A DNA stretch of 64,000 nt from a virus. Positions within the stretch are counted from its first letter, which is position 1, and every line of letters starts with the position of its first letter. This document shows, one piece after another, positions 2,738-60,677 of this stretch. The position numbers were made by a program, and so were the translations under genes. The stretch is from positions 23,456 through 87,455 of IMG/VR virus record IMGVR_UViG_3300006192_000008; one strand, 5' to 3'. Below the pieces are notes generated by a model. That model saw only the letters and a program-made list of their open reading frames with translations. It made no database searches and had not been told where the DNA came from.

Positions 2738-3754
2738 ATGTCAGTTTTTGAAGAGAGTAAATCGTATCGTCCATTCACGTATTCTTGGGCTGCGGAGGCA
2801 GCTCAGAAACACAATATTGATATGTATTGGGACGTACATCAAATTAACTTGCAAGATGATATTCAGCAGTATTTTTCCAAGGATGGTCTGAAGACGAAGA
2901 GTATTAGTCACGAGCAGAATAAGAATATCCTTGATAAGACTTTGTGTCTATTTACAGAGATGGACAAGACTGTTGGTGGCGGTTATACAGAAGTTTTGCA
3001 TCTGATTAAGAACAATGAAATCAGAAACATGCTTATGACTTTTGCAGCTCGTGAGGTTATTCACCAACGTGCATATGCTCTAGCTGCTGAGACTTTTGGT
3101 TTTAGTAACGATGATTGGTCTGCTTTTGCTTCATATAAAGAGATGGCAGATAAACTAGATGTTATGGTAGAAGATTTGACGCCAGTTGGGGCAAGCGACC
3201 AACTGCGAGCTGCAATCAAGCTGACTCAGATTCTTATGGGAGAAGGTATTGGTTTGTTTGGTGCCTTTGCAACATTGCTGAATCAGAAGCGCTCAGGTAT
3301 CCTTAATGGCTTCAATGATATTAATGAGTGGTCACTAAAGGATGAGCAGGAACACGTAACCAACAATATCCGTACTGTCAAGGAAATAGAAAATGATCTG
3401 ACAGAAGTAGAACGCTTGGTTCTGAAGGATGTTACATTTAAGCTTGTTGAGAAATTTGAAGAGGTTGAAGGTGTTTACATTGATTTGGTGTTTGAGCTTG
3501 GCGGTGGAGAGGATTTAACTGTAGAGGGGATGAAAGAATTTATTCACTACCTCGGCAAACTTCGCTTGTTCCAACGTGGTTATATCAGCTTTACAGAAGT
3601 CCCTAAGAATCCTTTGGAGTGGATGGAGTGGCTACTTAGTGCTGGTAGACATAAGAACTTCTTTGAAGCTAAGGTTGTTGATTATGTGCACAAGGAATTG
3701 CCGGGGGAAGTGAATTACAATAAATACCTACACATTCTTACTGAACGTGCTTGA
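2738..3754 (+). CDS. nrdB: Ribonucleoside-diphosphate reductase, small subunit (class I beta)
   Basis: Diiron/tyrosyl-radical subunit that generates the radical used by NrdA. 338 aa, normal for the family. REVIHQRAY near residues 105-113 supplies the E-x-x-H ligands and the radical tyrosine with E. coli-like spacing; GEGIGLF near 167 and DEQEH near 201 supply the remaining Glu/His ligands. It starts 8 nt after nrdA, with AAGGAG upstream, so the two are co-transcribed. Confidence 0.95.
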   Translation: MSVFEESKSYRPFTYSWAAEAAQKHNIDMYWDVHQINLQDDIQQYFSKDGLKTKSISHEQNKNILDKTLCLFTEMDKTVGGGYTEVLHLIKNNEIRNMLMTFAAREVIHQRAYALAAETFGFSNDDWSAFASYKEMADKLDVMVEDLTPVGASDQLRAAIKLTQILMGEGIGLFGAFATLLNQKRSGILNGFNDINEWSLKDEQEHVTNNIRTVKEIENDLTEVERLVLKDVTFKLVEKFEEVEGVYIDLVFELGGGEDLTVEGMKEFIHYLGKLRLFQRGYISFTEVPKNPLEWMEWLLSAGRHKNFFEAKVVDYVHKELPGEVNYNKYLHILTERA

Positions 3755-37889: not shown

Positions 37890-38429
37890 CTAGAATGGGC
37901 CGTTATCACACCCAGAATCATCGTTATACGCATCTTTAGATGCACCCCAGTAGGGTAGCCTAGGCTCTGGTGTGATCGTTGATTTAAGGGGTGTTTTAGT
38001 AGGGATTTGACCCTTCCCAGACCACTCCTTAACAACCTTATTCTGCTTCACATCACTTCTCCAAAAGTCCTCTGGAATCTCTGGAAGTATTTCAGTATTA
38101 TCATTATCTACATACAAGATAATGTCAAGGACTTTCTCATATCTCCAATTCTTGTGTTGACCAGCTTGACCTTTATTGGCGACCATCAACCCACTGTCAA
38201 TAAATCCACGTATGATCCTACCAACCTGTTTCACACTCACACCACAAAGCTTGGCAATATCTTCTTGCTTGTCAAAATGCTTGTCAAAGAATGTGTTACG
38301 TTTCTTCATCACAACGTAGACGTTCTTGTCGTTAGCTGTCAGTTCTATCAGCTCACCCGTCTTAGGGCTAACGTAACCAGTCGCTCTCATCAGCACCTCT
38401 GGGTACTTGTAAAATAATGTCTGTTCCAA
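37890..38429 (-). CDS. Winged-helix/HTH regulator-like protein, 179 aa
   Basis: Central part KQEDIAKLCGVSVKQVGRIIRGFIDSGLMVANKGQ (about residues 55-88) is a clear helix-turn-helix with a following wing, as in replication-initiator or replisome-organiser N-domains. The C-terminal 50 residues are Pro/Asp/Gly-rich and disordered. Downstream of the ribbon-helix-helix gene, probably the same transcript. Could be a transcription factor or replication protein. Confidence 0.65.
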   Translation of the reverse strand: MEQTLFYKYPEVLMRATGYVSPKTGELIELTANDKNVYVVMKKRNTFFDKHFDKQEDIAKLCGVSVKQVGRIIRGFIDSGLMVANKGQAGQHKNWRYEKVLDIILYVDNDNTEILPEIPEDFWRSDVKQNKVVKEWSGKGQIPTKTPLKSTITPEPRLPYWGASKDAYNDDSGCDNGPF

Positions 38430-38473: not shown

Positions 38474-38605
38474 TCACCTTTCGTTTTGTATACTATCAAG
38501 CTGCATAAGTTTTACTAGGCATTCTACAATGAATGCTTGTCTTGACATTCCTCCTCTTTTCTTATCAACCCATTCCAAGATGGTAAATGGTAATTTTATG
38601 TTCAT
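38474..38605 (-). CDS. Ribbon-helix-helix (Arc/CopG-like) repressor, 43 aa
   Basis: ATG at 38605 preceded by GAGGAGG. The sequence MNIKLPFTILEWVDKKRG followed by MSRQAFIVECLVKLMQ matches the RHH pattern: a short beta strand (I-K-L-P), helix A, a turn with G-x-S-R, and helix B. This size and layout are those of Arc-type repressors, which bind palindromes as tandem dimers. Upstream lie multiple GGAC-N5-GTCC sites, so autoregulation is likely. Confidence 0.75.
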   Translation of the reverse strand: MNIKLPFTILEWVDKKRGGMSRQAFIVECLVKLMQLDSIQNER

Positions 38606-38618
38606 CAAACCTCCTCAA

Positions 38619-38867
38619 AGGACATACTGTCTCTGTCATGGGACACGAAGTCCTATAACGGTTTATCTTTCCTATCGCTTTGCTCTTACACAACAAATGA
38701 TGAAAAGAAGAAAAGCAAAAGCGCTGGATACGACTACAATCTTAAACAGATTGGTGTTAATCATCATAGGACTTTATGTCCTTTAATCTTTCTTTGTATA
38801 ATTCTATCTCTATTTTCTATCTCTCTATTGGGACTTCTTGTCCCTTAAATGTGGGACACGGTGTCCT
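38619..38867. promoter_or_regulatory. Array of five GGAC-N5-GTCC operator-like palindromes
   Basis: Sites: 38619-38632 (GGAC-N5-GTCT, one mismatch), 38640-38654, 38768-38782, 38830-38844 and 38853-38867 (all exact GGAC-N5-GTCC, with outer bases mostly R and Y). A further half site (GTCC) lies at 38884-38887. Spacing between centres is irregular (21, 128, 62, 23 bp). All lie upstream of the repressor gene. Confidence 0.75.
38672..38767 (-). CDS. Possible 31-aa membrane peptide
   Basis: The frame MMINTNLFKIVVVSSAFAFLLF... then a basic CVRAKR end predicts one transmembrane helix with a cytosolic tail. The start touches the operator at 38768-38782, and AAAGGA lies 14 nt upstream. Small and unproven. 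Confidence 0.4.
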   Translation of the reverse strand: MMINTNLFKIVVVSSAFAFLLFIICCVRAKR

Positions 38868-38886
38868 ATGACCTAGACAGGAAGTC

Positions 38887-39276
38887 CTATGACCCTCCAT
38901 TCACATACCCAAAGTAGTCCTTCAAAATCCAGCACATCTTAGACCACAAATCGAAGCTGCGCTTTTCCATATCTGCCAACCCTGTACCAATTCCTGCTGC
39001 TGGAAACACAATTGTATGTGTCTTAGACAGCTTGTACAACCCGCGCAGGTCATTCAGCACACAGTCAAATTCATCTTCTTTATCAGAGAAGAATGCCCAA
39101 TTATCCATACTCGGATAACGCTTTGTTGCAATACCGTAAGCATTTGGTTCATCTCTAATCACAGCTTGTCCACGCTTACCATAGCGCTTCATGTTGTCAC
39201 CAAAGACATAAATCTTCTCTGGATTAGCACGCAACAGCCTCTCTGTAAACAGCCTTTCTTCAATTTCTACATTCAT
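38887..39276 (-). CDS. DUF7831-like (macro-domain-like) protein, 129 aa
   Basis: IYVFGDNMKRYGKRGQAVIRDEPNAYGIATKRYPS and VFPAAGIGTGLADMEKRS match a phage family of small Rossmann/macro-like proteins (FGDN..R.GKGGQA.IR.E.NA.GIPTK). Such folds bind ADP-ribose-like ligands, but function in phage is unknown. AGGAGG before the ATG; own promoter upstream. Confidence 0.7.
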   Translation of the reverse strand: MNVEIEERLFTERLLRANPEKIYVFGDNMKRYGKRGQAVIRDEPNAYGIATKRYPSMDNWAFFSDKEDEFDCVLNDLRGLYKLSKTHTIVFPAAGIGTGLADMEKRSFDLWSKMCWILKDYFGYVNGGS

Positions 39277-39375: not shown

Positions 39376-39403
39376 TTGACTCTCAGGAATATTGCTGTAG
39401 AAT
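39376..39403 (+). promoter_or_regulatory. Plus-strand sigma70-type promoter for the long operon
   Basis: TTGACT, 16-nt spacer, TAGAAT, 35 bp before the first gene of the operon (ATG 39438). Confidence 0.7.
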
Positions 39404-58912: not shown

Positions 58913-59116
58913 TTAGTCCTTTGCAATGTAAGTGCGGATTTCCCATCCTTCGCCTGTATCTTCATTAAGCCACGTCTGATAGTTGCAAGAATGCCCGCCA
59001 GTTGTAGTGACTGCACCATAATTTGGCTGGAGTGTCAACCCGGAAACGTCACCAATCAAGGCCACTTCTTCATACTGACAAAATTTAGTGATTTTGTAGT
59101 GTTTGCAAATTTCCAT
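58913..59116 (-). CDS. Hypothetical protein, 67 aa
   Basis: Promoter 33 bp upstream; GGGGTAAGATC before the ATG. Beta-rich with three Cys. Unknown. Confidence 0.6.
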   Translation of the reverse strand: MEICKHYKITKFCQYEEVALIGDVSGLTLQPNYGAVTTTGGHSCNYQTWLNEDTGEGWEIRTYIAKD

Positions 59117-59148
59117 GATCTTACCCCTTGTTTGTCTTTGTTGCGTAC

Positions 59149-59177
59149 ATAGTAGCGCCCCGTTTCCGAGGCGTCAA
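59149..59177 (-). promoter_or_regulatory. Promoter with hairpin spacer
   Basis: TTGACG, 17-nt spacer, TACTAT. The spacer region can fold as CGCC-CG-GAAA-CG-GGCG, the terminator of the gene at 59182. Confidence 0.7.
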
Positions 59178-59181
59178 GCTT

Positions 59182-59445
59182 TTATTTGTATTTATTTTTA
59201 CGCTCTAGCATTATTTCTTTCTTAAAGGTTTTCATGTACCAACCGTTAAACGCTCGCAATTCTGCAAAAGCCCTATCAAAATCAGCCTTTGCCTGCTTAA
59301 ATTCTGGCATAGCCTTAACATGATCCGGCGTCAGTCCAAACGATGACTTACCATAAGAATCAAACGATTTAAGGGTTTTATCCGCACTATCTAAGGCAGT
59401 TTCCAGCACGATTTTGGTTTGCTTGGCTATTTGATAGGTTGACAT
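59182..59445 (-). CDS. Hypothetical protein, 87 aa
   Basis: All-helical, basic C-terminus (KKEIMLERKNKYK). Own promoter. Unknown. Confidence 0.6.
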   Translation of the reverse strand: MSTYQIAKQTKIVLETALDSADKTLKSFDSYGKSSFGLTPDHVKAMPEFKQAKADFDRAFAELRAFNGWYMKTFKKEIMLERKNKYK

Positions 59446-59477
59446 TTTTAGTTCTCTTTTCGTTTGTGTATGGCTAG

Positions 59478-59506
59478 ATTCTAGACCCAGCGCTTCAGCT
59501 TGTCAA
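59478..59506 (-). promoter_or_regulatory. Consensus-like sigma70 promoter
   Basis: TTGACA, 17-nt spacer, TAGAAT. Confidence 0.85.
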
Positions 59507-59745
59507 GCAATTTTCGTAATGAAAAAGGAAATTTCTTTACCTGTTACCACATCAGTGTAGATCATAACACCTGAGACAAAATGAAAACCCTGTTTTTCTG
59601 ATTTGCTTTCTAGTGTGTATTGCCCGCCATTAGCATTAGCATATTCTTGCATAAGGCTTTGAACTTCTTTTCTTGCACTGTTCCACTTGTATTTAATTAC
59701 ATTATGACCTTGTGTGCTGGTGATCAAGAATTCTTCGCGTTTCAT
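59503..59745 (-). CDS. Hypothetical protein, 80 aa
   Basis: ATG 59745 with AGGAAGCAAAGCC upstream; the frame to 59790 would include the promoter region. Beta-rich C-terminus (GFHFVSGVMIYTDVVTGKEISFF). Its stop overlaps the -35 box of the next promoter. Unknown. Confidence 0.6.
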   Translation of the reverse strand: MKREEFLITSTQGHNVIKYKWNSARKEVQSLMQEYANANGGQYTLESKSEKQGFHFVSGVMIYTDVVTGKEISFFITKIA

Positions 59746-59762
59746 GGCTTTGCTTCCTGTTC

Positions 59763-59798
59763 TGTATAGATTGTGGCCCTTTCGAGCCACCTTGTCAA
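59763..59798 (-). promoter_or_regulatory. Probable promoter/terminator composite
   Basis: TTGACA (59793-59798) followed by a hairpin GTGGC/GCCAC; a CACAAT box lies at 17-nt spacing and TATACA at 24 nt. -10 choice is uncertain. Confidence 0.5.
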
Positions 59799-59799
59799 C

Positions 59800-60030
59800 T
59801 TATTTATCTGTTGTTCGACCTAGCGTCTTTACTTCGCCGTTATGCTTTTCAATTGTCCACGCAATACCGTAGTGCTCGATCTCTAAAACTCGGTGACTTC
59901 CTGCATGATAACCGCTTTCAATTTCAAAACTGTAGTCTTTAATGATATTCCCGTAGCGTGTCAATTCCTTTGCAATTTCATCTAACCAGCCGTCAACATA
60001 CGCTTTCTTGATTTGTGCTTTAGTCATCAT
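59800..60030 (-). CDS. Hypothetical protein, 76 aa
   Basis: Starts MMTKAQIKKAYVDGW; two ATGs in a row, with GGAAGCAAAAGCC upstream. Alpha/beta (IEIEHYGIAWTIEKHNGEV). Unknown. Confidence 0.6.
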   Translation of the reverse strand: MMTKAQIKKAYVDGWLDEIAKELTRYGNIIKDYSFEIESGYHAGSHRVLEIEHYGIAWTIEKHNGEVKTLGRTTDK

Positions 60031-60066
60031 GGCTTTTGCTTCCTATTGTTTCGCTTCGATGGGTTT

Positions 60067-60124
60067 ATTCTAGTCAAAACAAAAGGCACTGACCAATAGT
60101 ATTTTTCAATAGCTTAGTCAGTGC
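60067..60124 (-). promoter_or_regulatory. Terminator/promoter composite
   Basis: Stem AAGGCACTGAC/GTCAGTGCCTT (about 60083-60127) ends the gene at 60138; TTGGTC (60091-60096), 18 nt, TAGAAT (60067-60072) serves the next gene. The -35 box lies at the base of the stem-loop. Confidence 0.65.
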
Positions 60125-60137
60125 CTTATAGATTCTA

Positions 60138-60614
60138 TTAATTGTTTACATTCAACTCCAAACCCTTCTTGATCCAATACACAAGCTTTTTACTGGCTTG
60201 TTCTTGTGCTTCTTTAAACCCTTTGGCTGCAAACTTGTCTTTGTCCTGCTGTTCGCCATACTGCCCGGCGTTTACTTCAAGATACCAACAATCCGAACCT
60301 TTATATTTCCACAACTTCACTTGATTGTTATAACAACTTGTGTCTTCATGCAATCCTTGCACCATGTAAACTATTTTATCCTTTGTAAGTTTTGTTTCCT
60401 CTACTTTATACCATTCTGCCTCAAAGTAAAGCCATTCAACAGCATTTACAGCATCGAAAATTTCATAATGATAATCTACATCATTCTTTTCTGTTGCCAG
60501 TTCTACAGCTTCCTGAATTTCATCGTCTAGCTTATCAAGAATGGCCAAGGCTAACAGATTATCTTCACAATCTGCTTTGTGTGCCAGTTGGTCAAGGCTG
60601 AATTGATTGAGCAT
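60138..60614 (-). CDS. Hypothetical acidic protein, 158 aa
   Basis: Largest early protein nearby: acidic helical N-terminus (KLDDEIQEAVELATEKNDVDYHY) and beta-rich centre with ELNVNN end. No family recognised. Terminator directly after the stop. Confidence 0.7.
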   Translation of the reverse strand: MLNQFSLDQLAHKADCEDNLLALAILDKLDDEIQEAVELATEKNDVDYHYEIFDAVNAVEWLYFEAEWYKVEETKLTKDKIVYMVQGLHEDTSCYNNQVKLWKYKGSDCWYLEVNAGQYGEQQDKDKFAAKGFKEAQEQASKKLVYWIKKGLELNVNN

Positions 60615-60677
60615 TTTGTGTAATCTCTTTATGTTCTAAATTCTAAGGAATTGCGACACATTGTAAGAATATGTCGT

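Follow-up and report, generated by a model that had tools for sequence, protein, structure and literature searches.

Organization of the locus

The window analysed here is a stretch of 64,000 nucleotides comprising bases 23456-87455 of a virus record of 87,455 b, and coordinates refer to the window unless another record label precedes them. Among named phages, Pseudomonas phage vB_PsaM_M1 (Ounavirinae; M1 below) comes closest to it, with 82% identity over 8% of the region. At the locus under study, a small gene for a ribbon-helix-helix (RHH)-like protein is followed by a gene for a winged-helix (wHTH) protein:

38610-38616, minus strand: ribosome site GAGGAGG of the RHH-like gene
38474-38605, minus strand: RHH-like 43-aa gene, ATG at 38605 and stop at 38474, product MNIKLPFTILEWVDKKRGGMSRQAFIVECLVKLMQLDSIQNER
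37890-38429, minus strand: wHTH putative initiator gene, 179 aa, TTG start, assigned with Pfam, PHROG and Foldseek
37893-37922, minus strand: C-terminal end DDSGCDNGPF of the wHTH protein, a tail resembling the SSB tip and the sole such tail among the 223 window ORFs of at least 60 aa

An earlier note on this DNA had pointed to the 43-aa ORF behind its ribosome site, which proves to be a real, overlooked gene with homologues in several other phage lineages, and it had rightly expected a winged-helix gene downstream (Pfam HTH_36, E 6.6e-6). Its placement of the site between two gene blocks holds in part, as the site does lie near their divergence but a DUF7831 gene also separates the array described below from the plus-strand operon. 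This gene (E 4e-31; 38887-39276, minus) is inserted between the array and the divergent promoter, and adjoins the cassette in L010 too.

The small gene is under protein-level constraint, because the changes between L140 and L141 are all synonymous (6 synonymous and 0 non-synonymous codon differences) and the differences between lineages sit mostly in third codon positions. Its product has no RHH family match in Pfam or NCBIfam, no PDB sequence match, and no significant Foldseek match for its model. The AF2 monomer consists of helices 4-16 and 22-42 (pLDDT 90) with no strand, although the ribbon cannot arise from one chain alone, and hhalign aligned N2/K4/P6 of the small protein to N11/R13/P15 of Arc in a weak match (P=0.012). 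The gene stands directly before the initiator gene in the window, in L008-L010, L140, L141 and L170, and in KLEP7, Barba and PAc. The constancy of this placement suggests that the 43-aa protein acts in the manner of CopG, probably as a control partner. The two genes are presumably cotranscribed; a sigma-70 promoter search of the RHH operon gave no clear candidate. Vibrio phages 10AMN (W05:63089-63184) and VnaP (W06:120982-121077) each carry a second copy of the RHH-like gene.

Palindromes and the AGATAGA tract

Upstream of the small gene lies an array of palindromes around a repeat tract, listed here in the direction of the two genes:

38875-38887, no strand: putative iteron 1, AGACAGGAAGTCC, one mismatch to GGAC-N5-GTCC
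38854-38866, no strand: putative iteron 2, GGACACGGTGTCC, exact, 21 bp from iteron 1
38831-38843, no strand: putative iteron 3, GGACTTCTTGTCC, exact, abutting the tract, with the first GATAGA 21 bp on
38783-38830, minus strand: proposed unwinding element, a tract of AGATAGA repeats with 77% A+T and, on the minus strand, 77% purine
38769-38781, no strand: putative iteron 4, GGACTTTATGTCC, exact, on the far side of the tract
38641-38653, no strand: distal site 5, GGACACGAAGTCC, exact, upstream of the RHH ribosome site
38620-38632, no strand: distal site 6, GGACATACTGTCT, one mismatch, adjoining the RHH ribosome site

The four exact copies of GGAC-N5-GTCC counted earlier (at 38641, 38769, 38831 and 38854) stand, but there are two near-matches (38620 and 38875) and not one, and the six sites together span 268 bp. 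Exact copies are expected by chance 0.55 times per 64 kb, and four were reached in 0 of 100 shuffles. A search of the whole record, which the earlier note had proposed, returned no further exact site in 87,455 b; the array is non-random and, within the record, confined to this locus. Read as GAC-N5-GTC, all six sites are exact, and when the 300-b region was shuffled 3000 times with its dinucleotides preserved, six sites of any such palindrome were never reached. The paired-motif pattern of the AGATAGA tract likewise occurs once in the 87-kb record. The cumulative GC-skew of the window has its minimum at 39384, 0.5 kb from the array, which would suit an origin there, but gene direction alone could explain the switch because it changes at this point too.

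It is very improbable that the palindromes act as RNA hairpins or terminators in a leader. They can fold, and one site with its T run scores as terminator-like, but the number of terminator-like structures falls within that of shuffled sequences, and the terminator reading was rejected. A conserved leader RNA was rejected as well, as the only supported pairs are those of the palindrome itself and no Rfam match was obtained. Moreover, it is the sequence of the arms, and not pairing alone, that is fixed within each phage.

Distribution of the cassette among relatives

Relatives were collected with the wHTH gene, which led to viral contigs, with the RHH protein, which led to Vibrio, Pseudaeromonas and Rheinheimera phages, and by tblastn, which led to phiPMW. 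A scan of genome contigs with the wHTH alignment gave no relatives, the KLEP7 wHTH protein as query found no further contigs, and a scan of viral contigs for triple palindromes was uninformative, with at least 120 stretches.

The carriers of the wHTH gene have a common layout, in which palindromes are followed by an AGATAGA-rich tract, usually by further palindromes, and then by the RHH-like gene, missing in phiPMW, and the wHTH gene. Most lineages have 3-4 palindromes per array, spaced 21-24 bp, with one gap of 33 bp in phiPMW. The first GATAGA lies 21-23 bp past the last upstream site in six lineages, two of these sites being one-mismatch copies read by eye. The palindrome core is GGAC in the window, L008, L009 and phiPMW, GGCA in L010, GGAA in L140 and L141, RGAC in Barbavirus, and a degenerate GGAT/GGAC in the second cassette of the L141 phage. 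Among 3000 shuffles, the observed count was reached by 0 for the window, 0 for L008, 5 for L010, 17 for L141, 12 for L140, 1 for phiPMW and 8 for Barba. No array of the window type was found by this analysis in M1, which served as control, or in KLEP7, whose cassette has the tract and the RHH-like and wHTH genes without a clear array, which counts against the origin reading developed below. In Aeromonas phage PAc the two genes are paired as well; the A+T-rich tract there differs in sequence and, as read by eye, has TTTGTCG-like sites on its flanks.

Several records hold further copies or parts of the cassette. Phage G005 (L170:1400-2360 and L174) has two complete cassettes whose palindromes differ and which may represent two origins, and in addition a third wHTH paralogue that has no array. 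A 55-bp leader element between the tract and the RHH gene (L141:4673-4727) recurs inverted at L171:1852-1905 with 91% identity, there upstream of another wHTH paralogue. In about 900 b of L147, an unrelated phage contig, GGACAAATTGTCC is followed by an AGATAGA tract (around 3531-3573, minus) inside a replisome-organiser gene (Phage_rep_org_N). This is possibly an intragenic origin, but it could be a chance match, as a rough estimate gives 1-2 of these per scan.

Assignment of the palindromes to one of the two proteins

The array and the tract follow the wHTH gene and not the RHH gene. All nine cassette records have wHTH and tract together (L010 with variant motif spacing), while both are absent from M1, the L011 contig and Vibrio phage 10AMN, and VnaP, too, is without the tract. 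There is also no array in M1 and the L011 contig, and the RHH-like gene was not found in them either. The separation of the two proteins comes from phiPMW, where array, tract and a 'replication initiation protein' are present and no RHH was found in the record, and from Vibrio phages 10AMN and VnaP, where the RHH gene precedes a divPolA2 gene with no array; wHTH was searched for in 10AMN and not found. The palindrome core points the same way. In all five lineages with a GAC-type core the wHTH protein has K67 together with R or K at position 71, whereas a GCA or GAA core goes with R67 and G71. The putative contact residues N2 and K4 of the RHH protein are identical across GGAC, GGCA and GGAA phages, and its residues 2/4 differ among phages with a GAC core, being N/I in the second cassette and F/L in Barba. 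Because the GCA and GAA lineages are sisters, this covariation represents few independent events. From these comparisons, the palindromes are most likely read by the wHTH protein rather than by the 43-aa protein.

The earlier note had taken the palindromes for operators of the small RHH protein, which would then be a transcriptional autorepressor, and several observations are in keeping with this. The gene lies directly behind the array, two sites adjoin its ribosome site, and these distal sites are what an autorepressor would use; phiPMW, which is without the distal sites, is also without RHH, and CopG autoregulates copG-repB (PMC5717011). Nevertheless, the claim is left without support by the array of phiPMW, which tracks wHTH with no RHH present, by the Vibrio phages, which have RHH without an array, and by the recognition helix of the wHTH protein, which shifts with the core from GGAC to GGCA and GGAA as N2/K4 of the RHH protein stay fixed. 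If the sites were its operators, their specificity would be expected to follow the ribbon residues, but the ribbon is constant where the core varies and differs between lineages with the same core. Most sites are, in addition, clustered at the tract and not at a recognisable promoter, and we regard this reading as unlikely.

Both proteins could also use the sites, the initiator starting replication and the RHH-like protein competing with it to hold replication back. A precedent is the plasmid antitoxin PrpA, which competes with the initiator RepB for iterons (PMC7848731), and the pairing of RHH and initiator genes is tight in most lineages. Such sharing meets the same covariation problem as the operator model and the same lack of RHH in phiPMW, and although it could still hold via shape or protein-protein contact, it is in our judgement improbable.

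The winged-helix protein and its tail

Besides its match to HTH_36, the wHTH protein matches the PHROG family 'replication initiation protein' (3.7e-7). The core of its model is a winged helix, predicted with a pLDDT of only about 70-88, in which residues 66-79 would form the recognition helix. The best Foldseek match in the PDB is 4RO3 (5.9e-5), the N-terminal domain of RepA of the V. cholerae PLE satellite, a RepA_N initiator that binds semi-palindromic iterons (PMC7145576); the window protein resembles this RepA_N fold in its N-terminal domain. The next matches, at about 4e-3, are plasmid RepA initiators and a Rep-DNA complex (4PT7, 5KBJ and 4PQL), and the same search also returned MarR and Fur structures. 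BFVD matches include proteins of phiPMW and Barbavirus, an Aeromonas 'replication protein' and ICP1 ORF88. Pfam RepA_N (PF06970) had no match in the window protein and scored 0.006-0.009, below the cut-off, in its relatives, the nearest Pfam families being DUF6945 and HTH_36. On fold similarity, the wHTH protein is predicted to be a RepA_N-type initiator.

The C-terminal tip of SSB is an acidic stretch ending in PF. The wHTH protein terminates in a similar way, with an acidic stretch and PF, and across 545 ORFs of 20 loci all 12 SSB-like tails belong to wHTH proteins or to a vestige of one. The wHTH proteins of phiPMW and Barbavirus are without such a tail. A near-identical tail is common to the window and L010 despite divergent N-terminal domains, and a second tail type is common to L008 and L141. 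No SSB gene was found by Pfam in the window phage. The SSB tip binds PriA, chi, RecO and PriC (PMC7145534). In L173 (992-1732, minus), from a relative, a wHTH initiator-like domain that carries this SSB-like tail as well is joined to a GIY-YIG/T5orf172 nuclease, making the fusion a candidate origin-directed nuclease like ICP1 Odn.

Exchange with divPolA2

The gene for divPolA2, a divergent polymerase of unknown role (PMC11348598), occupies the cassette locus in M1 and the L011 contig, where it is followed by the 3' end of a lost wHTH gene. Conversely, a 23-aa end of divPolA2 is fused to an HNH gene behind the wHTH gene of the L009 phage, and a 143-aa divPolA2 fragment lies behind that of the L141 phage. 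The regions concerned are L001:8849-10204 (minus), L011:4467-5798, G005:61838-62269 and L009:6489-7193, with reciprocal 3'-end vestiges and an HNH gene at one junction. By these remnants, divPolA2 and the wHTH cassette have been exchanged for one another at a single locus. There are exceptions to this exchange, as both kinds of sequence occur in Barba, KLEP7 and the L141 phage; no divPolA2 was found in the window phage.

In ICP1_2006_E, divPolA2 (ORF100) was assigned by position and ICP1 matches to 58,951-60,618 (L194:3952-5619), close to a divergent gene junction. Early read coverage of this phage peaks 'near the 60 kb position' (PMC7145576). The gene therefore coincides with the early replication peak, though the sequenced strain had a CRISPR deletion and the coordinates may be shifted. 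Together, the exchange and this coincidence provide a first functional lead for divPolA2.

A putative replication origin

Computation yields an array in fixed phase, a tract, a set gene order, an association with the wHTH gene, covariation of core and recognition helix, similarity to the RepA_N fold and a tail motif, and from these we infer iteron binding and origin activity, a function for the tail and a role for the RHH protein. We consider it likely that the palindromes mark the start site of DNA replication in this Felix-O1-like phage, that is, an origin made of iterons and served by its own initiator. The palindromes would be the iterons of a theta-type origin, bound by dimers of the 179-aa wHTH initiator on one helix face, since they are two helical turns apart in most lineages. 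The resulting nucleoprotein complex would open the adjoining AGATAGA-rich, A+T-rich tract, and the initiator would bring in the replication machinery, its disordered SSB-tip-like tail perhaps docking on host proteins that bind SSB, such as PriA or Pol III chi. Through the distal sites by the RHH ribosome site, the initiator may regulate the operon that encodes it, or it may loop the origin. The 43-aa RHH-like protein would be co-expressed as a control partner, used as CopG is before a rep gene.

Alternatively, the wHTH protein might regulate transcription of the divergent operons, with the array as its operator cluster rather than an origin. Its domain does match transcription factors, as the MarR and Fur structures attest, and the array lies between divergent gene blocks; its best structural matches, however, are replication initiators, and an origin would better account for the A+T-rich tract at fixed phase and for a polymerase gene taking over the locus. 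We hold this reading to be quite improbable and retain the origin.

Searches of open-access PMC papers returned no account of a replication origin in Felix-O1-like, Barbavirus or Plaisancevirus phages, and the present analysis offers a precise candidate in the isolated phages Barba18A and phiPMW. The relatives also form a natural series of matched iteron-initiator pairs from which specificity could be decoded. The way in which RepA_N-type initiators bring in the replisome has been stated as unknown (PMC7145576), and the SSB-tip-like tails suggest a direct answer. If the cassette and divPolA2 are functionally interchangeable, divPolA2 would be an origin-acting and probably primer-making polymerase. 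The full scheme, of a family of lytic phages with swappable origin cassettes, an SSB-mimic initiator recruiting the host primosome, a tiny RHH control protein, and an interchangeable divPolA2 that acts at origins, probably by making primers, is put forward tentatively, and we think it rather doubtful as a whole.

Comparison with known systems

The closest counterpart by fold is the PLE RepA, which gave the wHTH domain its best structural match. The RepA_N domain of PLEs varies together with the origin, and the C-terminal parts are shared and shuffled (PMC8263062); the present cassettes likewise have iteron-like palindromes and divergent N-terminal parts with shared tails. They differ in that they belong to lytic phages, have shorter iterons and an AGATAGA tract, and place an RHH-like gene ahead of the initiator gene, and in that the window wHTH protein has a short SSB-tip-like tail and falls below the Pfam RepA_N cut-off.

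By origin layout, the locus resembles the O-type origins of lambda and P22. In lambda, inverted repeats of 19 bp serve as iterons next to an AT-rich region, and lambda O binds the repeats and opens that region (PMC7466680); the P22 sequence has iterons followed by an A-rich tract; in the window, too, in-phase inverted-repeat iterons are followed by an A+T-rich tract. The recognition sequence is a different one, however, and the array is found ahead of both genes and not inside the initiator gene, from which the RHH-like gene separates it.

As to gene order, a tiny regulator gene lies directly before the replication-protein gene in copG-repB of pMV158 (PMC5717011) and in orf56-orf904 of pRN1 (PMC4234260), and in the window a small putative regulator gene is found directly upstream of the initiator gene in the same manner. 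The likeness comes from gene order, as the window initiator is a wHTH protein and not of the pMV158 or pRN1 type. Finally, ICP1 Odn (gp88), an origin-directed nuclease, has a similar initiator-like DNA-binding fold, seen here in the BFVD match to ICP1 ORF88 (PMC8263062), but the window wHTH protein is without a nuclease domain.
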